DNA from: Oceanobacillus luteolus
Lineage (GTDB): Bacteria > Bacillota > Bacilli > Bacillales > Amphibacillaceae
Length of the DNA stretch: 64,000 nt
Direction: 5' to 3'
Assembly: GCF_023715655.1 (NCBI RefSeq)
Contig: NZ_JAMBON010000005.1
Coordinates: forward strand, 1 to 64,000
The position numbers were made by a program, and so were the translations under genes. This document shows positions 12,927 through 37,223 of this stretch, one piece after another. The notes under the pieces were generated by a model. It was given only the letters and a program-made list of their open reading frames with translations. It had not been told where the DNA came from and did no database searches. Within the stretch, counting starts at the first letter, position 1. Each line of letters starts with the position of its first letter.

Positions 12927-13241
12927 TTAAATCGGTTCAATAAACACATCCATGATGCCGCCACAAATTCCGCCATCTTCATACATGATGCCTTTTGTTA
13001 AATCAACCTGATGCTGGCAAGCCCTGCCTTTCTCTATCACCATAAAAGACTTTTCAATCACTTCTCCTTCTCCGCAGCCACCGCCTATCGTTCCATAGAT
13101 ATCTCCATTGGAAAAGATAAGCATCTTCGCTCCAGTACTCCTAGGCGTGGATCCTTTCGTTCGAATGACCGTAGCAACCGCAGCCTTCTTACCTGCTTTT
13201 TGTACAGACATGACTTTATCGAAGAACTCCATGTTGTTCAT
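12927..13241 (-). CDS. XdhC/CoxI N-terminal domain protein (short)
   Basis: A 104-residue protein equal to the XdhC_CoxI domain alone. It has 'VATVIRTKGSTPRSTGAKMLIF', 'GTIGGGCGEGEV' and 'CGGIMDVFIEPI', with the conserved Gly-rich/Cys motif and the terminal CGG block. XdhC proteins bind molybdenum cofactor, have it sulphurated and insert it into xanthine dehydrogenase. Its ATG overlaps the stop of the preceding gene (ATGA). The Rossmann half found in full-length XdhC is absent here but present in the upstream gene, so the two products may work as one split chaperone. It is the last gene of the long operon. Confidence 0.85.
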   Translation of the reverse strand: MNNMEFFDKVMSVQKAGKKAAVATVIRTKGSTPRSTGAKMLIFSNGDIYGTIGGGCGEGEVIEKSFMVIEKGRACQHQVDLTKGIMYEDGGICGGIMDVFIEPI

Positions 13242-14068
13242 TTTCTTACTCTCTCCCGGAATTTTAATTGTGAATAGCTAGAGATTTTTTCCTTTAATGA
13301 GTTGCCCGTTGCAGTATGTTTTACTTTTAGTATTTCCGCCAAAATGCTGATTGCAATTTCCGCAGGCGTTTGCGCACCAACATCCAATCCTACAGGTGAG
13401 TAGATGTTTGTAAAATTATGGTCCGTGAATTCTGTCTTCAACTGTTCAAACACACCAGAAATCCTTCGCCTGCTGCCGATCATTCCGATATACTTAGTTC
13501 GCTCCTCGGGTTCCATTTCCTCCTCACGTCTCAACAGTTCCTGCAGACTGACCACATCAAATTGATGTCCCCGTGTCAACAGAAGAATATACGTTTCAGA
13601 TGTAATCGGTACGTGACGGAAAAAGTCAATATATGGTGCACAAACTACCTTGTCGACATAAGGAAAACGTTCCCTGTTTGCAAACTGCTCTCGATCGTCA
13701 ATGACCGTCACATAGAAACCAAGCATCTTCCCCATTTCCGCGACAGGTTCAGATACATGACCAGCTCCAGCCACAATCAGATGAGGCGGAGCTTGAAAGA
13801 CCTCTATGAAGCATTCAACTTTTGTTTCCTTATATTGAATCTCAATTGTTTTTGTTCTGCGAACCTCCAGTAAAGGCAAACTGCACTTAATGATTTCGGA
13901 TTGTAACTCGGAGGGAAGTTGATATTCATCATATAATGTGCCATCCTTTTCTAAGAGCAACGACGTACCAAGTAATGCTTTATCAGTATGACGAGTAATC
14001 GTAATGAGAGCAACATCCTTCTGTTCTTGGATAGCTTCTGAAAATCTTTCGTATAGTTGACGACTCAT
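13238..14068 (-). CDS. XdhC family molybdenum cofactor insertion protein with Rossmann domain
   Basis: About 276 residues (MSRQLYERFSEAIQ...). The N-terminal third resembles a degenerate XdhC_CoxI domain ('KDVALITITRHTDKALLGTSLLL'). It lacks the GGGCGEGEV and CGG motifs kept in the 104-residue neighbour. The C-terminal part is the XdhC Rossmann domain ('PHLIVAGAGHVSEPVAEMGK', 'VTVIDDREQFANRERFP', 'IGMIGSRRR', 'GLDVGAQTPAEIAISILAEIL'). It would mature the xanthine dehydrogenase encoded just upstream, as PucA does in B. subtilis. Seven bases separate it from the large subunit gene. ATG 14068 or the preceding TTG 14071 could be the start. Confidence 0.88.
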   Translation of the reverse strand: MSRQLYERFSEAIQEQKDVALITITRHTDKALLGTSLLLEKDGTLYDEYQLPSELQSEIIKCSLPLLEVRRTKTIEIQYKETKVECFIEVFQAPPHLIVAGAGHVSEPVAEMGKMLGFYVTVIDDREQFANRERFPYVDKVVCAPYIDFFRHVPITSETYILLLTRGHQFDVVSLQELLRREEEMEPEERTKYIGMIGSRRRISGVFEQLKTEFTDHNFTNIYSPVGLDVGAQTPAEIAISILAEILKVKHTATGNSLKEKISSYSQLKFRERVRK

Positions 14069-14077
14069 CAAGGCACA

Positions 14078-16411
14078 TCACCTCGCAGTCAGCGTTTGTT
14101 TTTTGGTAGCTTGCATTGCCTGGTAAACCCGCTCTGGTGTTGCCGGTAGTTGATAAATCCTTGCTCCTGTAGCGTCATAAATTGCGGCCATGATCGCCGG
14201 GATAATCGGAATCATCACTACTTCAGCAATTCCTTTCGCACCGAAAGGACCACTATTCTCATTAGATTCCACAGGAATGGTTTCAATGACAGGTGTTTCT
14301 CTGATCGTCGGGATTACATAATCTGTGAAGCTTTTTGTTTTGTTGTAGCCGTTTTCCATCAATACGTCTTCATACAACGTATAGCCAATTCCCATGACAG
14401 CTCCGCCTTCACATTGCCCTTCCAGTCCTTGTGGATTCAAGACTTTTCCACAATCGGGAATCGCAACGACCCGAAGAACCTCGGTTTCACCGGTTAATGT
14501 ATCAACCTCTACCATAACAACATGCGTCATATAACCGTAAAAATGGTGAGGGGCCCCACCGGAATTTTTCAATTCTTCTTTTTCTCTTGGAAGGTAGAAA
14601 TGACCCTCCACCACCATTGGTTGGTGTTTTTCATAAAGATGTTCATAAATTGCTTTATAATTTACAGCACGTTTTTCCTCTCCAGCTACATGTAACTTAT
14701 TTTCCGAAAGCTCGATTTGGTCTGCTGAAACTTGTAGGATTTCTGCCGCAGCTTCAGCCATTAAGCCGATCATTTTCGGAGCTGCAGTAGCAATTGCACG
14801 ACCACCTGTGTATGTTGAACGCGATGCAGAAATTGTTCCGCTGTCCAGAGCCTCTGTCGTATCTCCCTGTATAACGTCGATATCTTCTATATCACATTTT
14901 AAAAGCTCTGCTGCAACTTGTGCGTACACTGTCCCATTTCCTGTTCCGATTTCCTCGATGGCAACCGCAACTTTAAATCGTCCATCTTCCAATAGCTCGA
15001 TGGTAGCTGCACCATAGTCGGGGGTACCAAGACCCATACCGATGGCATGAAAAGATGTGGCAACAGCAACACCACGTTTCTTCCACGGTTCACTAGCTTG
15101 AGCTTTATATACGTCCCTGTTTTTCCATAACTCACTTTGTTCCGCCTTCTCTAACGTTTCCACTGTACCGACACTTGAGGTGACGACATGCCCAAGACTG
15201 GATTTTTCTCCTTGACAGTAAGCGTTCTTCTTCCTGATTTCAATCGGATCGAGACCAGTTTTTTCCGCAAGCAGGTCAATATGTGTCTCAATCCCAACAC
15301 AAACCTGGTTGACCCCAAAACCGCGAAAAGCGCCCGCAATTCCGTTATTCGTAAAAACACAAAAACCTTCCATATCCACATTTGGAATTTTATAAGGGCC
15401 AGCACCATGTTCGATTGCAAGGGCGACAACCGCACCACCTAATGAGGCATATGCCCCGGTATCCGCAACAGCCCGCAATTTATGAGCGATTAACGTACCA
15501 TCTTTTTTCGCTCCGGTTTTCACCGTTACTTTAAAAGGGTGGCGTTTAATCCCAGAGGCAACCGATTCCTCACGTGATAAATGAAGTTTCACCGGTCTGC
15601 CTCCCGTGTTCATCGCAAGTAATGCTAAATAAATTTGTACGGTTATTTCATCTTTCCCACCAAAGCCTCCACCATTGGGACTGGAATAAATATGAATTCG
15701 CTCTGGATTCAGTGCAAGAGATCGTGCAATTTGCAGCTTATCCCGGTGACCATATTGGGATGGACAATGAATCGACAGGGACCCGTCTTCCTCCAACACG
15801 CCCCAGCCACCTTCCGTCTCTAAAAATGCGTGCATTTGCCGAGGGGAATAGAATGTATTCTCAAAAATATAATCCGCCTCTTCAAACCCTTTCTCGATAT
15901 CACCATTTTGGATCGTAATATGACTATGGATATTTCCATCTGGGTGAAGCTGTGGAGCACCTTGTACCATAGCACTTTCCGGATCTGTCACAGCTTCCAG
16001 AGGATCATAGTCTACATGGATTAACTCAAGAATTTCCTTGGCAGCTTCCTCCGTTTCCGCTGCAACCAACGCGACGGCATCACCCAAACATCTCACTACG
16101 TCTTCACACAGCACCGGTTGATCAGGTGTTACAATACCAAATCCATTGAAACCTGGTATATCTTTATGTGTTAACACGCAGATTACCTCTGGATGTTCCA
16201 GTGCTTTTGCTATATCAATCGACTTGATTTTTGCAAATGGATACTTTGCCCGAAGTACCTTCCCCCAAACCATATTCGGGAATTTTAGATCTGTTTTATA
16301 TTTCTGCTCTCCGGTCACTTTTTCTGGTCCGTCAATTCTTTTTACTCGTTTCCCTACCCATTTTAATTGTTCTTCCTTCATCGTTTGTACTTCTTTTATT
16401 TCGTTACTCAT
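14078..16411 (-). CDS. pucD: xanthine dehydrogenase, molybdopterin-binding subunit
   Basis: The 777-residue catalytic subunit hydroxylates hypoxanthine to xanthine (and xanthine to urate) at the Mo centre. It begins with 'WVGKRVKRIDGPEKVTGEQKY', the ald_Xan_dh_C N-terminus. It contains 'NGGGFGGKDEIT', 'GAFRGFGVNQ', 'GTISASRSTYTGGRAI' and the C-terminal 'PFGAKGIAEVVMIP', whose Glu is the general base. It overlaps the FAD subunit gene by four bases (ATGA), and XdhC maturation genes follow. In this operon hypoxanthine-to-xanthine is probably the relevant step, because no uricase is seen. Confidence 0.93.
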   Translation of the reverse strand: MSNEIKEVQTMKEEQLKWVGKRVKRIDGPEKVTGEQKYKTDLKFPNMVWGKVLRAKYPFAKIKSIDIAKALEHPEVICVLTHKDIPGFNGFGIVTPDQPVLCEDVVRCLGDAVALVAAETEEAAKEILELIHVDYDPLEAVTDPESAMVQGAPQLHPDGNIHSHITIQNGDIEKGFEEADYIFENTFYSPRQMHAFLETEGGWGVLEEDGSLSIHCPSQYGHRDKLQIARSLALNPERIHIYSSPNGGGFGGKDEITVQIYLALLAMNTGGRPVKLHLSREESVASGIKRHPFKVTVKTGAKKDGTLIAHKLRAVADTGAYASLGGAVVALAIEHGAGPYKIPNVDMEGFCVFTNNGIAGAFRGFGVNQVCVGIETHIDLLAEKTGLDPIEIRKKNAYCQGEKSSLGHVVTSSVGTVETLEKAEQSELWKNRDVYKAQASEPWKKRGVAVATSFHAIGMGLGTPDYGAATIELLEDGRFKVAVAIEEIGTGNGTVYAQVAAELLKCDIEDIDVIQGDTTEALDSGTISASRSTYTGGRAIATAAPKMIGLMAEAAAEILQVSADQIELSENKLHVAGEEKRAVNYKAIYEHLYEKHQPMVVEGHFYLPREKEELKNSGGAPHHFYGYMTHVVMVEVDTLTGETEVLRVVAIPDCGKVLNPQGLEGQCEGGAVMGIGYTLYEDVLMENGYNKTKSFTDYVIPTIRETPVIETIPVESNENSGPFGAKGIAEVVMIPIIPAIMAAIYDATGARIYQLPATPERVYQAMQATKKQTLTAR

Positions 16412-17286
16412 CTTTCATCCCACCTCTGCATCAAACGGTGTAGACCTCTTTCAAGCAACGCACTTGCCATACTCCGCCGGTATTTAGCGCTTCCTCTGAC
16501 ATCTGATATTGGCATCACTTCTTTCCAAGCTGCTCCGGCAATATTTTGGATTGCTGTCTCATCCAATGGACCAAGGGTAAGCATTCTTTCGCATTTTTTA
16601 GAGCGAATGATTGTTGGTCCTACAGAGCCAAATGCAATTTTTCCAGAGAGACACTCTCGCGGGTTCTCCCCCATTTTCAAATTGATGGCCACATTAACAA
16701 TCGAGATGGATTGGGCTTTTCTTGGACCTAACTTTTCAAAAATACCAATTTCATTTTCTCCCTGAGGCTGAATGATGATATTGGTAATCATCTCATCTTG
16801 CTTTAAAACCGTTCTCCCTGGTCCCGTAAAAAATTCATGGATAGGAACGACTTTCTTATCATGAAATGAGCTTATTTCTATTTTTGCATCAAGTACATAA
16901 AGTGCAGGAATCATGTCACCTGCTGGTGATGCAGTAGCAAGATTTCCCCCGAGCGTCCCCATATTTTGAAGTTGAACCGCCCCCACCTCTCTAGATGCTC
17001 CAACGAGTACATCCGCTTTTTCCTGAAGCAACTCTGATTTAACTATATCTGTATGGGTAGTTAACGGGCCGATATGAATCCCATTTTCTGCTTCGGAGAT
17101 AAAACGCAGCTCATCCAATCGCTTTAGATTAATCCATATTTCCGGACGAAAGTAACCATCCTTCATGCGGACGACCGCATCTGTCCCTCCGGCAAGTAGA
17201 CGAGAAGATTTCTCTTCTTCATGCAGAAAGTAAAGGCATTCCTCAACCGTCGACGGCGAATACATATCCATCTCTGAAACTCTCAT
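16408..17286 (-). CDS. pucC: xanthine dehydrogenase, FAD-binding subunit
   Basis: A 292-residue CoxM/PucC-type flavin subunit that passes electrons from the iron-sulphur centres to an acceptor. The FAD loops are visible as 'LLAGGTDAVVRMKDG' near residue 30 and 'QNMGTLGGNLATASPAGDM' near residue 110, followed by the CO_deh_flav_C domain. GGAGG six bases before ATG 17286 fixes the start. It is translationally coupled to the molybdopterin subunit. Confidence 0.92.
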   Translation of the reverse strand: MRVSEMDMYSPSTVEECLYFLHEEEKSSRLLAGGTDAVVRMKDGYFRPEIWINLKRLDELRFISEAENGIHIGPLTTHTDIVKSELLQEKADVLVGASREVGAVQLQNMGTLGGNLATASPAGDMIPALYVLDAKIEISSFHDKKVVPIHEFFTGPGRTVLKQDEMITNIIIQPQGENEIGIFEKLGPRKAQSISIVNVAINLKMGENPRECLSGKIAFGSVGPTIIRSKKCERMLTLGPLDETAIQNIAGAAWKEVMPISDVRGSAKYRRSMASALLERGLHRLMQRWDER

Positions 17287-17330
17287 CTCAACCCTCCTTG
17301 AAAAAAGTAAATATCATTCGAATTTCTTAA

Positions 17331-17942
17331 CTATGTTTTCCACTGTTGGTCCAGTGAAGTCCCTACAAGATAATCATCAAGGTTGTTCAAATTCAATAAG
17401 ACATGTGGCTCGTTAACGGGGATATGCTCGATTGCATCATGATATTTTTGGATGACATTCCGTAATCCTTTACTTTCTTCATTCACCTTCATTAAGTCAC
17501 GCTTTACGCTAACGGAAAACAAAACAGGATGACCACGTTTTTCTTGATAAACGGGAATGAGGACTTTTCTTTTTGTCTGATGGAAAGCACGTATAAGGAT
17601 TCTCAGTGTCTCACTGGATACAGGTTGATCCACTGCAGATACGAGAATTCCATCTATATCATCAGCTACACATGAAACACCTTTCTGGATAGATGTACTT
17701 TTTCCGTTGGGGTAGTTTTCATTTAATACTGTAATTACATCGTAGGCTGAAATCCTTTTCTGTAACTCTTCCGCTCTATAGCCAAGTACAACAATAATTT
17801 CAGCTAGGCCAACTTCGAGCAATTGTTCAATCTGGTACTCGATTAACGTCTTTCCTTTCCAAGGAAGCAGGGCTTTTAATTCCCCCATCCGGCTGGAAAA
17901 CCCAGCTGCAAGCAGAATTGCTGATACTTTCCTTGCCGTCAT
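17331..17942 (-). CDS. pucB: molybdenum cofactor nucleotidyltransferase, MocA/PucB type
   Basis: A 203-residue NTP-transferase-like protein starting 'KVSAILLAAGFSSRMGELKALLPWKGKTLIEY'. This is the nucleotide-binding motif of MobA/MocA enzymes that attach CMP or GMP to molybdopterin. It also has 'EIIVVLGYRAEEL', 'GILVSAVDQP' and 'GHPVLFS'. It overlaps the iron-sulphur subunit gene by four bases. B. subtilis has the same gene (pucB) beside its xanthine dehydrogenase subunits, and a MocA role (cytidylylation for the xanthine oxidase family) is the best reading. Confidence 0.85.
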   Translation of the reverse strand: MTARKVSAILLAAGFSSRMGELKALLPWKGKTLIEYQIEQLLEVGLAEIIVVLGYRAEELQKRISAYDVITVLNENYPNGKSTSIQKGVSCVADDIDGILVSAVDQPVSSETLRILIRAFHQTKRKVLIPVYQEKRGHPVLFSVSVKRDLMKVNEESKGLRNVIQKYHDAIEHIPVNEPHVLLNLNNLDDYLVGTSLDQQWKT

Positions 17943-18427
17943 CCTGGCGCTCCTCCTGCTGCCAACTGTCTCCTGGCAGCAGTTTGTACTGCCTTAATGA
18001 TTTTCGTATATCCTGTACAACGACAAAGATTACCGCCTAGGGCTGTCTTCACTTCATCATCTGTTGGGATATGATCGATGCTGTTTATAAAAGCTTTCGC
18101 AGAAACGATAATTCCCGGAGTGCAATATCCACATTGTGTCGCACCTTCATCGACAAAAGCCTGCTGCATGACATCCATGCCCCCGACTTGGCCGATACCT
18201 TCCACGGTTGTAATATTTGTATTCTCGGTTTGGCCGACAAGCATAAGGCAGGAACAAACGACTTCACCATCAACTTCAACTGAGCACGAACCACATTCAC
18301 CTTTCCCACAGCATTCCTTTGCACCAATTAAATCCAATTCATCTCTGAGTACATCCAACAGAGTTGAAGCAGGCGGACTCTTTATGGAAACCTCCTCACC
18401 ATTAACTTTTAATTGAATTTCTTTCAA
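17939..18427 (-). CDS. pucE: xanthine dehydrogenase, 2Fe-2S subunit
   Basis: A 162-residue electron-transfer subunit with two [2Fe-2S] sites. The N-terminal plant ferredoxin-like domain has 'AKECCGKGECGSCSVEVDGEVVCSC', split here as CCGKGECGSC followed by a Cys ten or more residues on. The C-terminal domain has 'CGYCTPG' and 'GNLCRCTGY'. TTG 18427 is preferred over GTG 18436 because GGGGG lies seven bases upstream of the former and overlaps the latter. It opens the XDH block, about 70 bases after the amidohydrolase gene. Confidence 0.92.
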   Translation of the reverse strand: MKEIQLKVNGEEVSIKSPPASTLLDVLRDELDLIGAKECCGKGECGSCSVEVDGEVVCSCLMLVGQTENTNITTVEGIGQVGGMDVMQQAFVDEGATQCGYCTPGIIVSAKAFINSIDHIPTDDEVKTALGGNLCRCTGYTKIIKAVQTAARRQLAAGGAPG

Positions 18428-18499
18428 GCAGTTCACCCCCTACTTTCACACTGGATTAAATTACTAAATATTACAAAAACTCATTAACTGATTCTTCCT

Positions 18500-19840
18500 T
18501 TATACTTTCATAATGGAAGGTACTCGCTTTAATAACCTTTTTATTGATTTGTCTGCTTCATACAAGACAATATCTTTATCCACTGTTTTCACTTCGCCTT
18601 TTTCCATAACAACTTTACCATTGATAATCGTTGTATCCACATCTGCCCTTGTAGCAGAATAAACGATTCGGGAAATCGGGTCGACATCAGATGAAGGGTA
18701 CGTATGAAATTTATACAAATCCAAAATCGCGAGATCAGCTTTCTTACCAACTTCAATACTGCCTATTTCATTTTCCATCCCAACTGCTCTGGCCCCACCA
18801 ATCGTTGCCATCCGGAACACCGTCCGCGCGTCCATATGCGTAGGTCCGAGATGTGGCTTTTGAATCAATGAAGCAAGCCGCATTTCATTAAACATATCCA
18901 GATTATTATTACATGGTGCTCCGTCCGCCCCTAAACTTACATTCACATCTCTGTCGAGCATATCCGGCACTTCCGCAATTCCCGATGCCAATTTCAAGTT
19001 GGATCCAGGACAATGGCTCATCTTCACGCCACGTTCTTTAATAATCCTTTTTTCTTCGTCATCCAACCACACACAATGTGCGAGAATCAGATTTTCATTT
19101 GCAAGGCCAATCTGATCCAAATAAACAACATTTCTCATTCCTCGTTGCATCTCGACTATTTGAATTTCTCCTCTATTTTCGGAAGCATGGGTATGGACTT
19201 TTACCTGATAATGCTTCGATAGATCTCGGACGGCAGTTAATAGCTCTTCCGTACAAGAAACGACGAAACGTGGACAGAAAGCGTATTGAATTCGGCCATT
19301 ATCGTACTGATGCCATTTTTCAAGAAGGTCGACACTTTGCTGAATCGATTTCGTCGTATCTTCTACAAGTAAATCAGGAACGTTATCTCCCATATCCATC
19401 ATGACTTTCCCAGACAGACAACGGATCCCGCTTTCCGCCATAGCCTGAAAAGCAGCATCAGTATGATTTACCGTTTCCATATCGACAATGGTCGTTGTAC
19501 CACTTTGAATCAATTCTCCAAGCCCAAGCATGGCGGAATAATAGCTGGATTCCTCATCATGGGCAGCTTCGAGCGGCCAAATTTTCTTCTGCAGCCAGTC
19601 CATTAATTCCAGATCATCAGCTTGGCCACGGAATAGCGTTTGACACAGATGGATATGGGTTTGGATGAATCCGGGAATTACTGTTTTATTCTTAGCATCA
19701 ATAATTTGATCCGCGGCATAACCTAAATCACCACCGACTTGAATGATTCTGTCATTTTCTATATACAAGTCGCCTTCAAGAATTTCTTCCCCAGCATTCA
19801 TCGTAATGATTTGTGCATTTTTAATTAACACACTCGCCAT
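18500..19840 (-). CDS. ATZ/TRZ-type amidohydrolase (deaminase), candidate 4-aminoimidazole deaminase
   Basis: A 446-residue metal-dependent amidohydrolase of the guanine deaminase/5'-deoxyadenosine deaminase/chlorohydrolase group. Motifs are PGFIQTHIHLCQTLFRGQADDL (first metal ligands), 'VHTHASENRGE', 'LAHCVWL', 'MSHCPGSNLKLASG' and 'LGADGAPCNNNLDMF' with the catalytic Asp. These enzymes usually remove an amino group from an N-heterocycle. ATG 19840 follows GGGGG and leaves 25 bases after the M20 gene. In this operon it could deaminate guanine, or (inferred) convert 4-aminoimidazole to 4-imidazolone. Guanine or 8-oxoguanine deaminase is the main alternative. Confidence 0.8.
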   Translation of the reverse strand: MASVLIKNAQIITMNAGEEILEGDLYIENDRIIQVGGDLGYAADQIIDAKNKTVIPGFIQTHIHLCQTLFRGQADDLELMDWLQKKIWPLEAAHDEESSYYSAMLGLGELIQSGTTTIVDMETVNHTDAAFQAMAESGIRCLSGKVMMDMGDNVPDLLVEDTTKSIQQSVDLLEKWHQYDNGRIQYAFCPRFVVSCTEELLTAVRDLSKHYQVKVHTHASENRGEIQIVEMQRGMRNVVYLDQIGLANENLILAHCVWLDDEEKRIIKERGVKMSHCPGSNLKLASGIAEVPDMLDRDVNVSLGADGAPCNNNLDMFNEMRLASLIQKPHLGPTHMDARTVFRMATIGGARAVGMENEIGSIEVGKKADLAILDLYKFHTYPSSDVDPISRIVYSATRADVDTTIINGKVVMEKGEVKTVDKDIVLYEADKSIKRLLKRVPSIMKV

Positions 19841-19865
19841 GGAATTCCCCCAGTTTATTTTAGTT

Positions 19866-21626: not shown

Positions 21627-21638
21627 TTTTAAACCTCC

Positions 21639-22322
21639 TTATTCTATGAAGACCGCAACTGCCCGAATCGGTGACCCAGTTCCCTTCCGAATTTTCAGTG
21701 GCAAGCCGAAGTATAGGAACCGTTTGCCAGCAACCTCATTTAAGTTTGCCAGATTTTCCGTATTGGAGATTCCGTATTCCCTGCAGACAAGATGACCGGA
21801 GAATTTCGGATCTTTTGGATTATCAATGGCTGGCGCATCAATTCCAATATTGACAACGCCTCGTTCCGCAAGCCATCGCGCTCCATAATAATCAAGCCCA
21901 GTGTAGCGGGTTAGCCATTCATCTGTTCCATAACTTCGGTTATAGTGCCCTGTATAGAGCAGAACAATATCACCTTTTTCCAAGACTTGCTGTGATTGTT
22001 TCAATGCCATCTCCAACTCACGAGGTGTAATATAGTCGTCTGGGGAAATATGTGATACATCTAAGCAAACAGCTGGGCCATAGAAATATTCAAGAGGCAT
22101 TTCATCAATAAATTTCCCATTCGGGTCATATTCGTATGTTGCATCCGTATGAGTTGCACCGTGCTCATTGATTAATAGATTATTTGTTGCAAACTCAAAA
22201 CCTACTTTTTTCATACTTTCTTCATGAGTAAGATTCGGAAATATCAATGTAGGCTGATGTAATGGGAAAACCGGCATACCCTGATAAATTTCCTGTGAGA
22301 GATCAACTAATCTAACTGCCAT
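21639..22322 (-). CDS. cyclase/kynurenine formamidase-like metal hydrolase
   Basis: A 227-residue PF04199-type hydrolase. The metal motif is HGATHTDA near residue 55, and the second-half ligands appear in 'SGHLVCREYGISNTENLANL' (His and Glu). The family includes kynurenine formamidase and isatin hydrolase; the latter opens a cyclic lactam. The usual 'DAPxH' is replaced by DATYEYD, so the third ligand environment differs from KynB. In this operon it may open 4-imidazolone to formiminoglycine (inference). It is followed after 12 bases by the DUF1989 gene and preceded by adenine deaminase 2. Confidence 0.82.
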   Translation of the reverse strand: MAVRLVDLSQEIYQGMPVFPLHQPTLIFPNLTHEESMKKVGFEFATNNLLINEHGATHTDATYEYDPNGKFIDEMPLEYFYGPAVCLDVSHISPDDYITPRELEMALKQSQQVLEKGDIVLLYTGHYNRSYGTDEWLTRYTGLDYYGARWLAERGVVNIGIDAPAIDNPKDPKFSGHLVCREYGISNTENLANLNEVAGKRFLYFGLPLKIRKGTGSPIRAVAVFIE

Positions 22323-22332
22323 ACTAAACCTC

Positions 22333-24144: not shown

Positions 24145-24165
24145 ACGTGATCACCACCCCTAATA

Positions 24166-24429: not shown

Positions 24430-24433
24430 CCCA

Positions 24434-25186: not shown

Positions 25187-25188
25187 AC

Positions 25189-25467: not shown

Positions 25468-25500
25468 TTGGAAAACCTCCTCTTATTGTAAAAAACGTTT

Positions 25501-25917
25501 TTAATCTTTATTCTCATCTTTTTTATTTTTTTTAGTTCTTGGGGATGAAGTTGAATCTGATTGATTTTTTGTTCCATCATTAGCTTTCTTCTTTGTTACT
25601 CGTTTCGGCTTCACCGGTTCTGGCTCATTTTTCAACATGAATTTGCTCAACAGCTTGGCATTCACGTCATGATGTGTTCTTGCAATCACTTCTGTTGAAA
25701 CGATGACTCCTACCTTTTCTGCTTGTTTTTTACCTGCCTCAACTGCTGAGGTGACTGCTGCCACATCTCCAGAAAGATGTACGGTTACACCAACATAGCC
25801 TTTTACACCAATTATTTTTTCCAGTCCGATAATTTCCACATCCGCAGCCTTTACAGCGGCATCAGCGGCTGATACCGCAGTCGTATAACCTACAGTCTCT
25901 ATTAAACCTAAGGCCAT
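25501..25917 (-). CDS. BMC-H shell protein with lysine-rich C-terminal tail
   Basis: About 138 residues. Residues 1-95 are a BMC domain ('ALGLIETVGYTTAVSAADAAVKAADVEIIG', 'GVKGYVGVTVHLSGDVAAV', 'VSTEVIARTHHDVN'). Some 40 further residues form a low-complexity basic tail rich in Lys, Asn and Ser, ending in KNKKDENKD. The tail would project from the hexamer and could bind cargo, nucleic acid or the neighbouring double-BMC protein. GGAGG is nine bases from TTG 25920 and twelve from ATG 25917; either may be the start. Confidence 0.93.
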   Translation of the reverse strand: MALGLIETVGYTTAVSAADAAVKAADVEIIGLEKIIGVKGYVGVTVHLSGDVAAVTSAVEAGKKQAEKVGVIVSTEVIARTHHDVNAKLLSKFMLKNEPEPVKPKRVTKKKANDGTKNQSDSTSSPRTKKNKKDENKD

Positions 25918-25925
25918 CAATTACT

Positions 25926-26870: not shown

Positions 26871-26925
26871 TTAACTTCACCTCACATTCCAATTAATCTG
26901 GAGTGGCCGGCATCCTTTTAGCAGT

Positions 26926-27189
26926 TCAGAGAATCTTCTTCAATTCCGAATGTGGACGTGGGATGACATTAAAAGAAATTAATTCTCCACCTGCTAATTC
27001 TGGAGCCAACCTGCCTACTTCTACTGCAGCACTCACATCGGCAACATCACCTTCAATAACTACGGTGATTAAACCGGATCCTACTCTTTTCATATCGACT
27101 AAAGTGATGTTGGCCGCTTTTGCCATCGAATCCAATGCTTCTACTGCTGCTGTAAGTCCTCTTGTTTCAACTAATCCAATTGCACTCAA
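26926..27189 (-). CDS. BMC-H shell hexamer protein with VGSG pore
   Basis: An 87-residue canonical BMC-H protein: 'AIGLVETRGLTAAVEALDSMAKAANITLV', pore segment KRVGSG, 'LITVVIEGDVADVSAAVEVG' and '[17 protein letters not shown]'. The TTG start is supported by GGGGGAG seven bases upstream. It is the first shell gene after UbiD. With a conventional Ser at the pore it is the likely bulk facet protein and the counterpart to the Phe-pored hexamer. Confidence 0.95.
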   Translation of the reverse strand: MSAIGLVETRGLTAAVEALDSMAKAANITLVDMKRVGSGLITVVIEGDVADVSAAVEVGRLAPELAGGELISFNVIPRPHSELKKIL

Positions 27190-27219
27190 ACTGTCTCTCC
27201 CCCTTTATGCACGAACTGA

Positions 27220-28566
27220 CTATAGATAATCCTGCAAATTAATATGGTCGTATGGCTCTGGGACAGATGTTCTTCTGAATAATTCTTTCTCAGACAGAGG
27301 GTACGTCGCGTCTATCCCCATCTTCGCAGACACGCCTCGTAAATTATGGGACGATTCCAAGGGTGAACCTTTTGCACCTGGTATGATGAAGACATCTTGA
27401 TCTGCTTGACACCTTGTAGCAATCGCCCATTCGACATCTTCAGGATTAAATACATCCACATCATCATCCACAACAACGACATGCTTCAAATCTTTATCAC
27501 TGGCAAAGGCTGCAAGCGCTGCTTGTTTTGCATCACCTTCCGACCTCTTTTCAATCTGAATGACGGCATGCAACCGTGCAGCTGCGGCCTTTGTAACATG
27601 AACGGCTTTCACATTGCGGACGACTTGTCTTACCGTGCTGAATAGAGTCATCTCTCTGACGAGGCACATAGATAATTTTTCTTCAGAACTTGATGGAAAA
27701 ATCGTTTGCATGATTGGATTATTCCGGTACGTCACTGCTGTCATCTCCACAATTGGTTCACGTCCATGTCCCCCGTAATATCCGCCGAGTTCACCGAATG
27801 CTCCCTCCTGATCTCGTTCATGTGGAAGAATTCTTCCCTCCATCACAATTTCCGCTTCTGCAAGAACCTCAAGATCCACCGTTTTCGCTTTGACAACATC
27901 AAGTGGATTACCAAGCAGGGCACCTGCAACATTCAATTTATCTGCATGAAAGAGGTGGGTACTAAACTGGGAGGCAAGTATGACAGCTGGAACAACCCCG
28001 AACATAACAGCGACTTCCAACGGTTCCCCTCTCTCCTCCAAGTAAGCATACTGTTCAGCAAGCTCTGGGGAGGTGATCACAATATTCGTCCGATTGCCAC
28101 CAATAAACTTCATTCGACGAATTGAGGTGTATCGCTTTTTCCCATCGAGATCCTTTACAACTAAAATTCCGGAAACATAATATGGCCCATCATCCTCTGC
28201 ATGAAATGTCGGAATCGGAAAGAGTTCACCTAAATTAAATGGAGGCGTTATCACATTTTCTTGTACCGGAGCCTGTGTAACAAGATTGGTGGGGAGTGGA
28301 TTGATGATGGAATTGACCATGTTTGGCAGTAATTCCGATTCCTCCAACCCCATACTATCCGCCATCAATTTCCGGCTGCCTCCGAGTCCTCCGACTACCG
28401 GGACGGAATAACCTTTCACCTTCTCAAACCACAAAGGCCGTTCCCCCTTTAATGCACGGAGAACTGCACCTAGTTCATACTCTGGGCTTACTTCCCGTTT
28501 CACACGGGAGAGGTGTCCGCGCTTCTCCCAATCAGCAAGTAAATCTCTCATATTTAGGGGATTCAT
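27220..28566 (-). CDS. UbiD family prFMN-dependent decarboxylase, candidate 4-amino-5-imidazolecarboxylate decarboxylase
   Basis: A 448-residue non-oxidative decarboxylase that uses prenylated FMN. Catalytic positions are visible: Arg in YTSIRRM (about 150), then Glu254 and Glu259 in EGAFGE. The Arg-Glu-Glu spacing of 104 and 5 residues equals that of fungal Fdc1. It is translationally coupled to its cofactor enzyme UbiX (ATGA overlap) and directly precedes the first shell gene. UbiD enzymes decarboxylate aromatic, acrylic and heteroaromatic acids. Here an imidazolecarboxylate is proposed from pathway context. No ubiquinone or phenol pathway genes are nearby. Confidence 0.88.
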   Translation of the reverse strand: MNPLNMRDLLADWEKRGHLSRVKREVSPEYELGAVLRALKGERPLWFEKVKGYSVPVVGGLGGSRKLMADSMGLEESELLPNMVNSIINPLPTNLVTQAPVQENVITPPFNLGELFPIPTFHAEDDGPYYVSGILVVKDLDGKKRYTSIRRMKFIGGNRTNIVITSPELAEQYAYLEERGEPLEVAVMFGVVPAVILASQFSTHLFHADKLNVAGALLGNPLDVVKAKTVDLEVLAEAEIVMEGRILPHERDQEGAFGELGGYYGGHGREPIVEMTAVTYRNNPIMQTIFPSSSEEKLSMCLVREMTLFSTVRQVVRNVKAVHVTKAAAARLHAVIQIEKRSEGDAKQAALAAFASDKDLKHVVVVDDDVDVFNPEDVEWAIATRCQADQDVFIIPGAKGSPLESSHNLRGVSAKMGIDATYPLSEKELFRRTSVPEPYDHINLQDYL

Positions 28567-29132
28567 TCTTTCTCCCCCCATCTTTCCATTAATTCATGTT
28601 CAATCCGAAGTTCGTCCAATATCCGGGCAACGACAAAATTGACCAACTCCCAAATTTCTGTCGGCTGATGATAAAAACCAGGACTTGCCGGTAAAATCGA
28701 TACACCTGCTTCCGCCAAGGTCATCATATTCCTCAAATGTATGACGTTGAACGGAGCTTCCCTCGGCACGACTACGAAATTCCTTCTTTCTTTCATCACC
28801 ACACCGGCTGCCCGGCTTACAAGAGAATCACCGACTCCATTGGCGATGGCACCAAGTGTATTCATCGAACAAGGTACAATGACCATGCCATCGGTTTGGA
28901 ATGAGCCACTTGCAATCGCAGCAAATAAGTTTTTATTATGATAAATAATTGCATACTCCTTCAAATCCTCTATATCTACGCCACATTCAAATTGCATCAC
29001 CTTTACTCCCATTTCGGTTGCAACTAAATGGACTTCAATTCCCATTTGATGAAGCGCGCGGATCAATGTGTAAGCATAGATTGATCCGCTTGCTCCTGTA
29101 ATGCCGACGACGATTCTCATCTTACGGCTCAT
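28563..29132 (-). CDS. UbiX family flavin prenyltransferase
   Basis: A 189-residue protein that makes prenylated FMN from FMN and dimethylallyl phosphate for UbiD enzymes. Visible motifs are 'GITGASGSIYA' (phosphate loop, residues 10-20), 'VPCSMNTLGAIANGVGDSL', 'VPREAPFN' and 'SPGFYH'. It overlaps UbiD by four bases, so cofactor synthesis and use are co-expressed. Pad1/VdcB-type paralogues have the same role. The ATG is preceded by AAGGTG. Confidence 0.93.
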   Translation of the reverse strand: MSRKMRIVVGITGASGSIYAYTLIRALHQMGIEVHLVATEMGVKVMQFECGVDIEDLKEYAIIYHNKNLFAAIASGSFQTDGMVIVPCSMNTLGAIANGVGDSLVSRAAGVVMKERRNFVVVPREAPFNVIHLRNMMTLAEAGVSILPASPGFYHQPTEIWELVNFVVARILDELRIEHELMERWGEKE

Positions 29133-29141
29133 AAAGTCACC

Positions 29142-29735
29142 TTATATCGTTTGCTGACTTTGGGAGAATTTTTGCTTCGCAGCTTTCATATATTCATCGG
29201 TCGTCAAAATCTCTCCGAATAAATCCATATCGCGGAGACCCGCAATATGCATATCTTCATCTTTGGATGCAGTTGCATCGGATAAAGCGATGACGTTATA
29301 GCCGTGATAGAGAGCATCAGAAGCCGTACTTCTCACACATACATTCGTCCATACCCCTGTAAGCACAACCGTATCAATCGACTCTTCCCTCAAAAATAAA
29401 TCGAAGTCGGTATAGCTGAATGCACTATGTCTGCGCTTCTGTACGACATAATCACCTTTATCCTCTTCCGGCTGAAGTTCTGGAATAAACTGTGAGCCCC
29501 ATGTACCTTTAATCGCATGTACTGGTCTTACTCTGAAATCCGCATCATTTTTTCGGTGTGCTTCTTGAACATGGATAACCTGAATATTATTCTCATGGCA
29601 AAAATCAATTGCTTCCCTAATTTTAGGGACAATTTTTTCTCCATCTGGGCACCGTAGCGTTGCATTTTCACCAATAAAATCATTCAGCATATCGATAATC
29701 ACTAGCGCATGTTTTTTACCTTTCAATTCTGCCAA
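29142..29735 (-). CDS. isochorismatase-fold cysteine amidohydrolase, candidate ureido hydrolase
   Basis: A 197-residue cysteine hydrolase of the N-carbamoylsarcosine amidase/RutB/biuret hydrolase group. The triad is visible: Asp in 'VIIDMLNDF' near residue 15, Lys in 'VVQKRRHSAF' and nucleophile Cys in 'GVWTNVCVRSTASDA'. Such enzymes hydrolyse carbamoyl or ureido groups to amine, CO2 and ammonia. Located between a hydantoinase-like amidohydrolase and UbiX/UbiD, it fits cleavage of 4-ureido-5-imidazolecarboxylate to the amino acid (inferred). TTG start after AAGGGTGG. An N-terminal amphipathic extension is not seen. Confidence 0.88.
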   Translation of the reverse strand: MAELKGKKHALVIIDMLNDFIGENATLRCPDGEKIVPKIREAIDFCHENNIQVIHVQEAHRKNDADFRVRPVHAIKGTWGSQFIPELQPEEDKGDYVVQKRRHSAFSYTDFDLFLREESIDTVVLTGVWTNVCVRSTASDALYHGYNVIALSDATASKDEDMHIAGLRDMDLFGEILTTDEYMKAAKQKFSQSQQTI

Positions 29736-29751
29736 GTCAACCCACCCTTTC

Positions 29752-31233
29752 CTAATTACTTACTAACGCTTTCTCTATTCTATGCTTCTCTTCCAGCTCT
29801 TTTGCAGATTCTTCATAAACCTCATATTTAATCTCGCGATCTAATCTCTGGATACTTTGACGTTTCACATATTCACCGTAACCCGCTTTTCCGACGATGC
29901 CGCCATTGTCTTCATCATAAATAACTTTGCCACGGACAATCGTTTGGATCGGTTTTCCTTTTAATTTCATACCATGGAGCGGATTGTATTTTGCCATGGA
30001 TTCCGTCTTTTGTTCGTCAATCGTATACTCACGTTCGAGATCGATTACAGTGAAGTCCGCGTCACTGCCAAGTTCAATTGCACCCTTTTTCGGATAAATT
30101 CCATAATGGATTGCAGCATTTCTGCTCGTCACCTCTACAAAGCGGGAGAGGGACAAACGGCCTTTATTGAAACCTTCACTAACAAGGATTGGTACCATTG
30201 TCTCGACTCCAGGAATGCCCGGGAAACTGTTCCAAATCGTTGAATCTGCTGCAGCTTTTTCTGTTGCAATTTCATAAGGGGCATGGTCTGTTCCGACGAA
30301 ATCAATCGTACCGTCAGCAAGCGCCTGCCAGTGAACGATATTATCTTCTTTTTCACGGAGAGGTGGTGCAATTTTCGCAAAGGTACCCCGCTCCGACATG
30401 GAATCTTGCGCATTCAGTACAAGATAATGCGGACACGTTTCTGCAGTCACTTTAACGCCACGTAATTTCGCCTCGCGAACGAGTTGCACCCCTTCCTTCG
30501 TACTCATATGAACGATATGGACACGTGCACCCGTTGCTTCCGCATAGCTGATGACGAGCTGGATTGCCACTTTTTCCGCCAGTGACATTCTTGCTTCCGC
30601 CCAAGCTGGACCATCCAATCTGCCTTCACTTTTCAATTTTTCTGTGTAGAACGTACAAATGTCATAATTCTCAGCGTGTACCCCAATCGGTAATCCTGTT
30701 GGTGCAATTTTACGGAAAATCTCCAACATTTCCCCATCAGTAACTTTTGGAAATGTCGGCACAGACGGTGTCATATAAACTTTAAATGCAACGACACCTT
30801 CTTCAATTTGCGGATAAATATTATCGAGCCAGCCTTCCCGTACATCTTCACCAGTCATGCCGCCCCAGAAACAGTAATCAATATAAGCCTGATCTCTTAG
30901 CGGCTCAATTTTTTTATAAAAACTTTCCCTATCTCTTACAGAAGGTTTACTACAGCACGGCATGTCAATATGGGTCGTTACTCCCCCTGCAGCAGCAGAC
31001 CTAGTGCCTGTCGTAAATGTCTCGCGGTGGGTAAAACCAGGATCCATAAAATGTGTATGTGGGTCGATACATCCAGGTACGACGAGATTTTCTTTTATAT
31101 CAATGGTTTCCTTCGCCTTCAGCGTACTCACATCGTTCGTGAAGCCTACTATCTTTCCATCATTTACGAGTATATTTGTTTTTACTTTTCGGTCTCCTTG
31201 AGGTATAAGTGCATTCGTTAAAATTAAATCCAT
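29752..31233 (-). CDS. hydantoinase/allantoinase-type cyclic amidohydrolase, candidate xanthine amidohydrolase
   Basis: A 493-residue binuclear zinc enzyme that opens cyclic amides. Ligand motifs: 'GCIDPHTHFMDPG' (HxH), 'VVAFKVYMTP' (Lys to be carbamylated), 'GVHAEN', 'IVHMST' and 'VGTDHAPYE'. It resembles allantoinase and dihydropyrimidinase. The last 40 residues (after 'KAGYGEYVKRQS') are a charged helical extension beyond the family's usual end and might be a targeting segment. It is the first gene of the long operon behind promoter 31528-31556 and leader A. Opening the xanthine pyrimidine ring to 4-ureido-5-imidazolecarboxylate is inferred; allantoin is the alternative substrate. Confidence 0.85.
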   Translation of the reverse strand: MDLILTNALIPQGDRKVKTNILVNDGKIVGFTNDVSTLKAKETIDIKENLVVPGCIDPHTHFMDPGFTHRETFTTGTRSAAAGGVTTHIDMPCCSKPSVRDRESFYKKIEPLRDQAYIDYCFWGGMTGEDVREGWLDNIYPQIEEGVVAFKVYMTPSVPTFPKVTDGEMLEIFRKIAPTGLPIGVHAENYDICTFYTEKLKSEGRLDGPAWAEARMSLAEKVAIQLVISYAEATGARVHIVHMSTKEGVQLVREAKLRGVKVTAETCPHYLVLNAQDSMSERGTFAKIAPPLREKEDNIVHWQALADGTIDFVGTDHAPYEIATEKAAADSTIWNSFPGIPGVETMVPILVSEGFNKGRLSLSRFVEVTSRNAAIHYGIYPKKGAIELGSDADFTVIDLEREYTIDEQKTESMAKYNPLHGMKLKGKPIQTIVRGKVIYDEDNGGIVGKAGYGEYVKRQSIQRLDREIKYEVYEESAKELEEKHRIEKALVSN

Positions 31234-31337
31234 TAAATTCTCCCCTTTTTACTAGAATAGTAGTTTAAATAAATATCAAAACTTCCAATTAGTTCTAGTT
31301 TCCGACATCCCTCCCTTCTCTAATATTTTTTCAATAT

Positions 31338-31482
31338 AAAAAACCGCAGACCTAAAACAATCCCAAAAGGAATTATTTTAAATCTGCGGTTCAACAACTT
31401 CCGTATAACAGAAATTTCATGAAACCGCTTTATTAGGTGCTGGAACAATAACGACCTGCGCTAATGTTCCTAAGCAATAAAG
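31338..31482 (-). promoter_or_regulatory. structured leader RNA with attenuator, copy A (upstream of hydantoinase/BMC operon)
   Basis: On the minus strand: outer stem CTTTATT/AATAAAG (31476-31482 with 31428-31434), inner hairpin GGAACA/TGTTCC, then P1 GCGGTT/AACCGC (31423-31428 with 31386-31391) enclosing TTCTG-TTATA-CGGAA (31399-31413). A terminator stem (31342-31391, AACCGCAGA with TCTGCGGTT) ends in a T-run. P1 and terminator share AACCGC. Conserved bases shared with copy B are 'AAGCGGTT-CATG', 'TCTGTT-TACGGA' and 'TTGAACCGCAGATTTA'. About 105 bases separate it from the ATG at 31233. Confidence 0.75.
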
Positions 31483-31527
31483 GCAGTCTTATATTTGATG
31501 ATTTCTTATTTTCGTTGGTTAATCATT

Positions 31528-31556
31528 AGAATAATAAACCTTTTCCATAATGTCAA
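31528..31556 (-). promoter_or_regulatory. sigma-A promoter of the hydantoinase/BMC operon
   Basis: TTGACA (31551-31556) and TATTCT (31528-31533) on the minus strand are separated by exactly 17 bases. Transcription would begin near 31521, about 40 bases before the first stem of leader A, so the leader is fully transcribed. Confidence 0.75.
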
Positions 31557-31611
31557 GCCGTATTCTGATTTTTGGTACTAATACATATATTTTAACTCTT
31601 GCAACAACATG

Positions 31612-33138
31612 TCAATTCGCTTTTCTATCAATTATTTTTTCTTGATCAGTCATCTGTCCCTGTTGTACAAGCCTTGATTTCGACATAATCAAGAAGTATA
31701 TCCCAATCAGAACATAACCGACGCTATATTCAAAAGATGCATTAAAGGCAACTGCAGAGGCATGAATAATACCAAAGAACGATAATACCGCACCCGCGAA
31801 TGAAAAGAGAGATGCCTTCTTAAAATCATGATCAATCACACATACTACAATGGCACCTAAAATGATAGCCGATATTAAAGCCCCCTGCCCCAATGGAACA
31901 ATTGCTGGTGAGATATTGCTGACCACTTCCCCTGCCTCGTTATTAAATCTTGTCATCAAGTAGTTGGAGAAATACGGAATCATGGCAATTGCAATTGCCG
32001 GATAATATTTACTATGTGAGGTCTGATAAGCCGTTGCAATCAAGGAAACCCCGACAAACACCATAATCGGTGCGATGGCAGCAAGCGGGATAATCGAAGA
32101 AACAACAGCGATCAAACCGAACATCGCTGCAAACATATACACAATTCCATTCAATATACTATAACCTCTTCCCGCACCCATCCATTTGGAGCCTGTAGAT
32201 GCAAGATAGACAGTCGTTGGAAATGCTCCGCCAAATATTGGTCCGATCATTGTTCCAACGCCATCAGCAATCATACTTTCCTTAATATCATATTTATCTC
32301 CAAGTGCTCCAACAGCTTCTACATTGTTCATCGTTTCGATTGCATTATAAATAGTTATTGGAAGCACTACAGCAAAAATAGATACCGCAGTTCCGAACAG
32401 GAGTCCCATTCCCTCAATGGTAGCTAATGTCGGCAAGAATGGGAAAAAGCCAAATTGAGAAAGTCCCTCAGATATTCCGTCCAACTTTTCATATCCAAAG
32501 AGATAAGCTAACACCGTACCAATAATTACTGCAAATAATGAAGCTGGAATCTTGAACGGCATCGCAATCTTGCCAATGATCCCAACGATAATGATGGCTA
32601 ATACAACAAGGCCGACAACAGGAATTTGCAGCGTATTGAACATCATTTCACCAGCGATAAACGTTAGAGCCAACCCCGCTAACGCACCAAGCATAGCTGC
32701 CCTTGGTATATTCCGGTGTAACCATTTACCGATAAACCCCATACTCGCTTCAATAATTCCCGCTATGAAACAGGCAGCTACAGAGATTTTCCATGCGGTC
32801 TCCGGATCATTCGTAAACGCCAATGCCGGTGCCATCACCCCGAATAAAAATACAAACATCGCAGGCGTACTGATCCCGTAAGACAATGCTGTGACGTCGG
32901 TACGCTGTTCTTTGACAGCTAGTTTTTTGGCCATATGGGCGTAATACAAATTACCAAATAATACAGCTACCGCCGCTCCCGGAATCACACGGCCAAATAC
33001 TATATCTGCAGGGTAGCCCATTCCAAGCATTGCCACAGAAATGATGACAAAGTTTGCAAGATTGTTTTGAAATAATGCAAAGAAAGCATCGATATCTTCT
33101 TTCTTAAACAATGGGTAATGAAAAGTATTATTATTCAT
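31612..33138 (-). CDS. NCS2 family purine/xanthine-type permease
   Basis: A 508-residue polytopic transporter of the NCS2 superfamily, closer to an uncharacterised AzgA-like branch than to PbuX/PyrP. Recognisable parts are 'NNLANFVIISVAMLGMGYPADIVFGRVIPGAA', 'TDVTALSYGISTPAMFVFLFG', 'PITIYNAIETMNNVEAVGA' (half-helix region) and 'PIFGGAFPTTVYL'. ATG 33138 has GGAG nine bases upstream. Leader B precedes it and it sits upstream of the BMC operon, so it probably imports the substrate of that pathway (xanthine, urate, or another oxopurine). It ends before promoter 31556 and is likely a separate transcript. Confidence 0.85.
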   Translation of the reverse strand: MNNNTFHYPLFKKEDIDAFFALFQNNLANFVIISVAMLGMGYPADIVFGRVIPGAAVAVLFGNLYYAHMAKKLAVKEQRTDVTALSYGISTPAMFVFLFGVMAPALAFTNDPETAWKISVAACFIAGIIEASMGFIGKWLHRNIPRAAMLGALAGLALTFIAGEMMFNTLQIPVVGLVVLAIIIVGIIGKIAMPFKIPASLFAVIIGTVLAYLFGYEKLDGISEGLSQFGFFPFLPTLATIEGMGLLFGTAVSIFAVVLPITIYNAIETMNNVEAVGALGDKYDIKESMIADGVGTMIGPIFGGAFPTTVYLASTGSKWMGAGRGYSILNGIVYMFAAMFGLIAVVSSIIPLAAIAPIMVFVGVSLIATAYQTSHSKYYPAIAIAMIPYFSNYLMTRFNNEAGEVVSNISPAIVPLGQGALISAIILGAIVVCVIDHDFKKASLFSFAGAVLSFFGIIHASAVAFNASFEYSVGYVLIGIYFLIMSKSRLVQQGQMTDQEKIIDRKAN

Positions 33139-37153: not shown

Positions 37154-37181
37154 CTTGAATGTCAAACATCCTTTAAACCAC

Positions 37182-37212: not shown

Positions 37213-37223
37213 GTATTCCTTTC

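Follow-up and report, generated by a model that had tools for sequence, protein, structure and literature searches.

In the first 64,000 nucleotides of Oceanobacillus luteolus contig NZ_JAMBON010000005.1 (RefSeq assembly GCF_023715655.1; hereafter the window), 21 minus-strand genes run from a hydantoinase-type amidohydrolase at 31233 to the N-terminal piece of an XdhC-like factor at 12927. This operon probably encodes a microcompartment of the published BUF1/XAU type (XAU for xanthine utilisation) that would degrade xanthine hydrolytically to glycine, with a DUF1989 hydrolase and an M20 amidohydrolase supplying a folate-free ending. A preliminary description of the locus had read it as one series with small or overlapping gaps, and the open reading frames (ORFs), their strand and their order agree, with intergenic gaps of −19 to +63 bp; it had also reported no uricase, and none was found across the whole genome. 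Pfam and NCBIfam recognise the enzymes, EutN, the xanthine dehydrogenase (XDH) subunits and the MobA-like and XdhC-like factors, so the enzyme set XauA, XauC, XauD, XauE and XauF is present, and no aldehyde dehydrogenase was found by Pfam among the operon genes. The 250-aa and 314-aa ORFs had no Pfam match at E 0.001, and the EutN and ATZ ORFs begin upstream of their likely true starts (about 24429 and 19840). Substrates and functions given below, like the contents of the shell, are predicted from sequence. The genes, all on the minus strand, are:

29752–31233, minus: hydantoinase/allantoinase-like amidohydrolase, predicted xanthine amidohydrolase (XauA, xanthinase); Pfam Amidohydro_1, nearest PDB entry 1gkr, an L-hydantoinase
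29142–29735, minus: isochorismatase-like cysteine hydrolase, predicted 4-ureido-5-imidazolecarboxylate hydrolase (XauC); Pfam, nearest PDB entry 3hb7, E 1.8e-77
28563–29132, minus: UbiX flavin prenyltransferase; TIGR00421 and NF004685 above cut-off
27220–28581, minus: UbiD decarboxylase, predicted 4-amino-5-imidazolecarboxylate decarboxylase (XauD); Pfam
26926–27189, minus: BMC-H shell protein, a short ORF from the genome hidden Markov model search; PF00936, 89.5 bits
25926–26870, minus: 314-aa putative cryptic BMC-T (PduB/EtuB-like) with an encapsulation-peptide-like N-terminal helix and an RPNYQ linker motif; predicted fold, no Pfam match
25501–25920, minus: BMC-H shell protein with a basic C-terminal tail; PF00936
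25189–25467, minus: BMC-H shell protein, best copy in relatives 83–97% identical; PF00936
24434–25186, minus: 250-aa protein with a UbiX/phosphopantothenoylcysteine-decarboxylase-like flavoprotein fold; AlphaFold2, Foldseek, weak TIGR02536
24166–24429, minus: EutN/CcmL pentameric vertex protein (BMC-P); PF03319
22333–24144, minus: adenine-deaminase-family protein of Asn type, predicted 4-aminoimidazole deaminase (XauE position); TIGR01178, 485.3 bits against a cut-off of 472.5
21639–22322, minus: cyclase-family metal hydrolase, predicted 4-imidazolonase (XauF); PF04199
21009–21626, minus: DUF1989 zinc hydrolase, predicted formiminoglycine deiminase replacing XauG; PF09347
19866–21008, minus: M20 amidohydrolase of the ArgE/DapE family, predicted N-formylglycine deformylase; TIGR01910, 258.4 against 217.6
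18500–19840, minus: ATZ/TRZ-type amidohydrolase, probable purine-base or nucleoside deaminase; NF005557 (5'-deoxyadenosine deaminase model), 726 against 522
17939–18436, minus: XDH 2Fe-2S subunit; Pfam
17331–17942, minus: MobA-like nucleotidyltransferase (Mo cofactor); Pfam
16408–17286, minus: XDH FAD subunit; Pfam
14078–16411, minus: XDH Mo subunit; Pfam
13238–14071, minus: XdhC-like maturation factor, Rossmann part; Pfam XdhC_C
12927–13241, minus: XdhC/CoxI-like N-terminal part; Pfam

In the proposed route, the hydantoinase-like xanthinase would open xanthine, the cysteine hydrolase would take off the ureido group, and UbiD, using prenyl-FMN made by UbiX, would decarboxylate 4-amino-5-imidazolecarboxylate. 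The Asn-type 'adenine deaminase' would deaminate 4-aminoimidazole, and the cyclase-family enzyme would open 4-imidazolone to formiminoglycine. Clostridia finish with a folate-dependent formiminotransferase; here DUF1989 would instead hydrolyse formiminoglycine, releasing ammonia and leaving formylglycine, which M20 would cleave to glycine and formate, so that no folate is needed. XDH, a canonical adenine deaminase encoded at 9216 and probably the ATZ/TRZ deaminase would feed in from outside.

The preliminary description had proposed looking for the same gene set in other genomes, and a 12-sequence alignment of the cyclase, searched against GTDB genome contigs, returned 226 relatives, of which the best 80 were used (here referred to by locus number, L). 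Gene content was taken from blastp of the window proteins against locus ORFs followed by a script tally; presence of the cyclase is by construction. Shell genes and UbiD recur together in 70 of these 80 loci, and the gene set is therefore more than a chance assembly; the tally leaves out L080 though it has both, and L109 and L117 have shell genes elsewhere in the same genomes, outside the fetched locus. The closest named locus is that of Virgibacillus indicus (cyclase 92%). Among the 70 shell loci, BMC-H2 was found in 69, the adenine-deaminase-like gene in 68, UbiX in 67, the 250-aa protein and EutN in 65 each, the 314-aa protein in 64, DUF1989 in 62, the isochorismatase-like hydrolase in 57 (54 at ≥60% identity), the hydantoinase in 54, M20 in 44 and ATZ in 42. 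The preliminary description had counted XDH as part of the operon, and as a fixed part it does not hold up, an xdhA match lying within the fetched stretch in only two shell loci; XDH genes stand close to an Asn-type adenine deaminase in three genomes viewed further.

The presumed catalytic residues are intact throughout. Xanthinase H59, H61, K151, H186, H242 and D316 are invariant (n = 57), and we take them to have metal-related roles; D15, K100 and C133 of the cysteine hydrolase (n = 59), H54, H58 and D60 of the cyclase (n = 81), and H69, D101, E135, E136 and E161 of M20 are likewise invariant in relatives. UbiD, whose gene adjoins that of UbiX, keeps R155, E259 and E264 (n = 71), an Arg-Glu-Glu set that is presumably catalytic. 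DUF1989 retains C101, H115, C118, C182 and D185 (n = 64), which align to the residues of Tdm that form a three-Cys zinc site plus His and Asp.

The folate-free ending is suggested chiefly by an exchange of genes. A cluster of genes encoding proteins of ∼300 aa (C13) occurs in L065, L109, L110, L114, L116, L119 and L121, all of which lack DUF1989 in the fetched locus; its annotated members (L121 and L065) are formiminotransferases matching FTCD_N and FTCD, and in L065 a cyclodeaminase (FTCD_C) adjoins. A formate-tetrahydrofolate ligase was annotated in L106 and belongs to the same sequence cluster as genes in L114 and L119. Of the 70 shell loci, 44 carry DUF1989 and M20, 18 DUF1989 without M20, 5 FTCD and 3 neither in reach, a split that counts the M20 of L115, only 31% identical to that of the window; M20 never occurs without DUF1989. 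The pattern extends to whole genomes. When FTCD was sought in 51 genomes (our own and those of 50 of the 80 loci), FTCD_N was present in 11 (L065, L104, L106, L109, L110, L114, L116, L117, L119, L120 and L121), against a background in the class of 12 of 250 genomes and 3 of 106 genera. It was found in none of the 36 genomes whose locus has DUF1989, so that no XauG formimidoyltransferase was detected by FTCD_N anywhere in the genome of the window organism or in that of Siminovitchia fordii, and in all 10 genomes that bear the shell but have no DUF1989 in the fetched locus, the eleventh FTCD genome (L110) being a fragment. In a tree of UbiD, UbiX, the adenine-deaminase-like protein and the cyclase, L065, with FTCD and cyclodeaminase, is sister to L052, with DUF1989 and M20 (support 1.0), nested in Bacilli.

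Because of this exchange across loci and genomes and in the L065/L052 sister pair, FTCD most likely has a hydrolytic substitute in DUF1989, joined by M20 in the loci that have it. The iminohydrolysis and deformylation that the preliminary description had assigned to the two proteins are supported by the exchange. The likely cost of a hydrolytic ending is the ATP that fermenters draw from formyl-tetrahydrofolate, and this cost may explain why it is mostly Bacilli that use the DUF1989 form; L115 speaks against that explanation. To our knowledge, no DUF1989 or M20 protein has been assayed on formiminoglycine or formylglycine, and none of the titles listed in searches of open-licence PMC literature joins DUF1989 with formiminoglycine, though the step may already be published.

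The genomes with neither FTCD_N nor a locus DUF1989 (L107, L108, L111 and L113; Halalkalibacter or Bacillus suaedae) have shell-less cyclase loci, with cyclases 64–68% identical to ours. Only His-type adenine deaminases were found in these four genomes, and two of them (L107 and L111) hold DUF1989 pairs elsewhere.

The front of the pathway may also be exchangeable. Six shell loci (L097, L101, L103, L105, L112 and L115) have no hydantoinase and instead a gene of a creatininase cluster, assigned by Pfam for L101 and by NCBIfam for L101, L105 and L115, the NCBIfam matches all below cut-off. ECF-like transporter parts (ATPase, CbiQ and a hydrophobic protein of ∼190–198 aa) accompany it in L097, L103, L105 and L115, and an ABC permease cluster in L101 and L112. 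No xanthinase ortholog at E ≤ 1e-90 was found in the genomes of L097, L101, L103, L112 and L115, and one was present in the other 12 of the 17 genomes searched. All six loci keep the shell, UbiX, UbiD, the Asn-type deaminase, the cyclase, DUF1989 and M20. Since creatininase loci retain shell and core without xanthinase, what stays fixed at the core may be the breakdown of aminoimidazolecarboxylate. We tentatively suggest, at slightly less than even odds, that this breakdown rather than xanthine degradation is the constant module inside the shell, carried out by UbiD, the Asn-type deaminase and the imidazolonase. It would be served by interchangeable front ends (xanthinase with the cysteine hydrolase, or a hydrolase of the creatininase family paired with an ECF/ABC importer whose cargo would be some imidazole or cyclic amide) and back ends (folate-dependent FTCD, or folate-free DUF1989 and M20 as a new route of formiminoglycine deimination and deformylation). 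As a genome-level marker the creatininase family was discarded, being present in 16 of 21 genomes searched, xanthinase-bearing ones included; only its placement in the locus is telling. The genome of Paenibacillus ihuae (G731) holds two microcompartment loci, L083 and L105, the latter of the creatininase group.

Regulatory RNAs near some sister loci are consistent with purine supply and glycine production. Rfam scans at gathering score covered 39 loci and the window. Purine riboswitches were found in 8 of the 39 (L042, L043, L045, L050, L052, L060, L065 and L080), directly upstream of ATZ in L050, L052 and L065. In purine riboswitches C74 specifies guanine, and the GACTATG segment of guanine-type aptamers was recovered by motif search in two of the eight aptamers (L052 and L065), the others having been read by eye. 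Glycine riboswitches lie beside a glyA-cluster gene (C15) in L045, L046, L047, L073 and L085, in tandem except in L073; the gene is serine hydroxymethyltransferase by Pfam in L045, and the others fall in the same sequence cluster. Those of L045 are at 13929–14113 and 16890–17084. L106 has one glycine riboswitch match exactly at the cut-off, not beside the C15 gene. The purine matches of L042 (13993–14090) and L043 (13905–14002) lie between the ATZ and XDH genes and have joining sequences that look unusual by eye; these riboswitches possibly have an altered ligand such as xanthine.

The imidazole route from purine to glycine in the preliminary description stood for the hydantoinase, isochorismatase-like, UbiD/UbiX and cyclase steps, which the invariant residues and sister-locus riboswitches support, and was not supported in the roles it gave to two deaminases: ATZ/TRZ as the aminoimidazole deaminase, and the operon adenine deaminase as a feed-in for adenine. 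The operon protein and the canonical adenine deaminase at 9216 fall in separate clades of a tree. In the GHAxG motif, Asn replaces His in 71 of 71 operon copies, and the SDHE motif reads SCHE. The His, at strand 5 and presumably a metal ligand, as in the amidohydrolase superfamily, is kept in 3nqb, in the second copy of the window and in each non-operon copy with a motif match (11 of 16 and 6 of 9), the remaining copies in both sets giving no motif match or no protein. The two sets comprise 30 fetched adenine-deaminase-like loci (14 Asn-type, 11 His-type, 3 with no motif match, 2 with no protein) and a further 15 (6 Asn, 6 His, 3 with no motif match). The Asn type accounts for the 68 shell loci noted above, and in L114 and L119, the two remaining, it lies a short way outside the fetched stretch. 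The separate clade, the Asn at the ligand position and the near-universal presence beside shell and cyclase genes suggest that the operon 'adenine deaminase' is probably a 4-aminoimidazole deaminase.

It is unlikely that ATZ/TRZ performs this step and that the operon protein merely converts adenine to hypoxanthine. ATZ follows M20 in the window operon and is matched in reach in 42 of the 70 shell loci (only 21–31% identical in L085, L104 and L106), an ortholog of ≥58% identity occurs elsewhere in 15 of 21 genomes with none in the locus, and the adenine-deaminase-like protein does pass TIGR01178, if barely. Yet among the 23 genomes checked, six shell-bearing ones (L097, L101, L104, L106, L112 and L115) have no ATZ ortholog above 41% identity at E ≤ 1e-60; two of the six, L104 and L106, have xanthinase, but also distant ATZ-like genes that could substitute. 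The Asn-type clade departs from canonical Ade at the presumed ligand position while a canonical copy is also encoded in the genome, and purine riboswitches stand directly upstream of ATZ in three loci. ATZ/TRZ thus looks dispensable, and probably feeds the pathway as a purine-base or nucleoside deaminase.

Nor do we favour the view that M20 removes the ureido group, with some other amidine or guanidine as the DUF1989 substrate and with formiminoglycine either excreted or passed to an enzyme not yet recognised. The M20 family includes carbamoylases, 18 loci have DUF1989 but no M20, and carboxyguanidine deiminase is a literature example of a DUF1989 enzyme. However, M20 passes an ArgE/DapE model with no carbamoylase model among its best 25, the isochorismatase-like enzyme, related to biuret and carbamoylsarcosine hydrolases, adjoins xanthinase, and in L065 M20 and DUF1989 are both gone where FTCD appears, which together make this account rather improbable. 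Least probable of the three is a compartment serving some other amino-heterocycle, such as aminoimidazole carboxamide or hydantoin, with XDH as a chance neighbour: xdhA is in reach in few loci, and the six loci without xanthinase hold creatininase and ECF- or ABC-type transporter genes, but xanthinase and the cysteine hydrolase head the window operon, some sister loci have purine or glycine riboswitches at their flanks, and the published XAU prediction and cited biochemistry point to xanthine.

Several observations nevertheless weigh against a xanthine-to-glycine organelle with a DUF1989 and M20 ending. By Rfam, the window has neither a glycine nor a purine riboswitch, and at gathering score neither was found in 26 of the 39 scanned loci (L106 being counted as having one). 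DUF1989 was checked genome-wide in 22 genomes, namely the 15 of the 51 that lack a copy in the fetched locus and 7 that have one, and it occurs elsewhere in 4 of those 15: the shell-less L107 and L111, and L104 and L106, where FTCD is present. Because L104 and L106 carry both, the exclusion of DUF1989 and FTCD is not absolute genome-wide. The absence of M20 from 18 DUF1989 loci counts here as well. L115, a Coprococcus metagenome-assembled genome and presumably a gut anaerobe, is the opposite case to L065, with DUF1989 and M20 and no FTCD, and speaks against the idea that only respiring Bacilli can afford this ending. Finally, the loci are related by descent, so that the counts are not independent and independent switches are few.

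The shell set consists of three BMC-H proteins and one EutN/CcmL protein, plus a putative cryptic BMC-T recognised by fold only; across the whole genome PF00936 finds three BMC-H genes, all in this operon. For the 314-aa protein, AlphaFold2 models a C-terminal domain mostly at pLDDT >90, which Foldseek matches to the tandem BMC fold of PduB (4fay, E 6.5e-8) and also EtuB. A profile search of PDB sequences gave weak matches only (best E 0.033), five of six being BMC shell proteins. We read the protein as a cryptic PduB-like BMC-T shell protein on the strength of this model; it would share the C-terminal fold with PduB and EtuB but is only 12–15% identical to them, invisible to Pfam, and extended by a long N-terminal RPNYQ linker. 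Its N-terminus carries a conserved MSDFMKxxVxEVL, and R, N, Y and Q of the linker motif are invariant (n = 47; the alignment comprises the window and 46 of 57 sequences). The N-terminus of PduB tethers cargo, and by analogy that of the 314-aa protein may do the same. Six shell loci (L114, L115, L116, L119, L120 and L121) yielded no ortholog of the 314-aa protein. The 250-aa protein (aligned from the window and 42 of 65 sequences) is modelled at a mean pLDDT of 88, with UbiX (6qlg, E 6.2e-6) as Foldseek match and a weak TIGR02536 match. Both models begin with a helix. Encapsulation peptides were also sought on the hydantoinase, isochorismatase-like hydrolase, UbiX, UbiD, cyclase, DUF1989 and M20, and no shared extra N-terminal helix was seen in the few loci viewed by eye.

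Around the operon, three further genes may bear on purine supply:

9216–10970, minus: canonical adenine deaminase, adenine feed-in candidate; TIGR01178, 673.2 against 472.5, His-type motif
11162–12544, minus: xanthine/uracil permease family carrier; PF00860
31612–33147, minus: hydrophobic permease-like protein, possible purine carrier by sequence only, 378 bp from the operon; no match in Pfam or NCBIfam (E 0.001) or PDB (E 0.1)

An MpsC-domain (PF10057) protein at 33569–33943 has relatives beside or inside 20 of the 70 shell loci, directly upstream of UbiX in several Paenibacillus. At 34378–38526 a second M20 amidohydrolase (CpsA/TIGR01891-like) is followed on the plus strand by a DcuC-family carrier and a PucR-type helix-turn-helix protein, and the minus strand of 38573–44642 holds a separate sugar-type set (xylose-isomerase-like, two GFO/IDH/MocA, ThuA and two ABC permeases). 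The only Rfam match in the window is a BsrC small RNA at 62086–62173 (65 bits).

The operon is real and well conserved and belongs to a published organelle type; added to that type are a probable new terminal branch and the reassignment of two enzymes. If these hold, they would fill a gap in the published pathway, which leaves it unexplained how loci of Bacillus type complete the route when the folate enzyme is absent. A DUF1989 subfamily would gain a proposed substrate, as would a clade of 'adenine deaminases' that is probably misnamed, and the known shell proteins would gain a BMC-T that domain searches miss. The compartment would also be one whose two ends can be exchanged while an imidazole core stays in place. 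The proposal can be tested directly in soil bacteria and bears on purine and uric-acid clearance.

A deiminase followed by a deformylase is familiar from histidine degradation, where HutF and HutG act on a formimino amino acid and avoid folate; the logic proposed here is the same, with unrelated protein families and with glycine rather than glutamate as product. The locus type itself, whose novelty the preliminary description had left to be verified, is not new: it was named BUF, with amidohydrolases, a deaminase, a carboxy-lyase, an isochorismatase and formiminotransferases (Axen 2014, PMC4207490), and a xanthine-utilisation compartment was predicted later, with a pathway closed by the folate enzyme XauG (Ravcheev 2019, PMC6620236). 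Sutter (2021, PMC8217296) lists BUF1 and BUF3 for Maledivibacter halophilus, the species of our L116, and through it we equate BUF1 with XAU. A xanthinase pathway cluster is reported to have been identified, likewise in Clostridia and Bacilli, with a kcat of 0.1 per second for xanthinase (Tong 2023, Cell Chem Biol 30:1104, as cited in PMC12507026). The core idea therefore predates the present work. In common with BUF1/XAU, the window has a shell with hydantoinase-like, isochorismatase-like and UbiD-like enzymes, a deaminase and a cyclase, no aldehyde dehydrogenase, and a Firmicutes host; it differs in that XauG is absent from the genome and DUF1989 and M20 stand in its place. Our assignment of XauE to the adenine-deaminase-like gene is an inference from its position after EutN, using the Amet gene numbers in Ravcheev. 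XauG is not obligatory for the type, since xauG was already reported missing from the cluster of Bacillus (now Siminovitchia) fordii (Ravcheev 2019), whose strain DSM 16014 is our L045. The DUF1989 family includes a deiminase, carboxyguanidine deiminase (CgdAB), and the trimethylamine N-oxide demethylase Tdm has a DUF1989 domain; the three-Cys zinc site is common to these and to the window protein, which would differ in substrate and is the product of one gene, where CgdA and CgdB form a pair. With purine fermentation in Clostridium cylindrosporum and C. acidurici, which runs from xanthine through 4-ureido-5-imidazolecarboxylate and formiminoglycine to glycine (PMC3519856), the pathway would share its intermediates, but the window organism would release formate, whereas in clostridia the formimino group goes to tetrahydrofolate.

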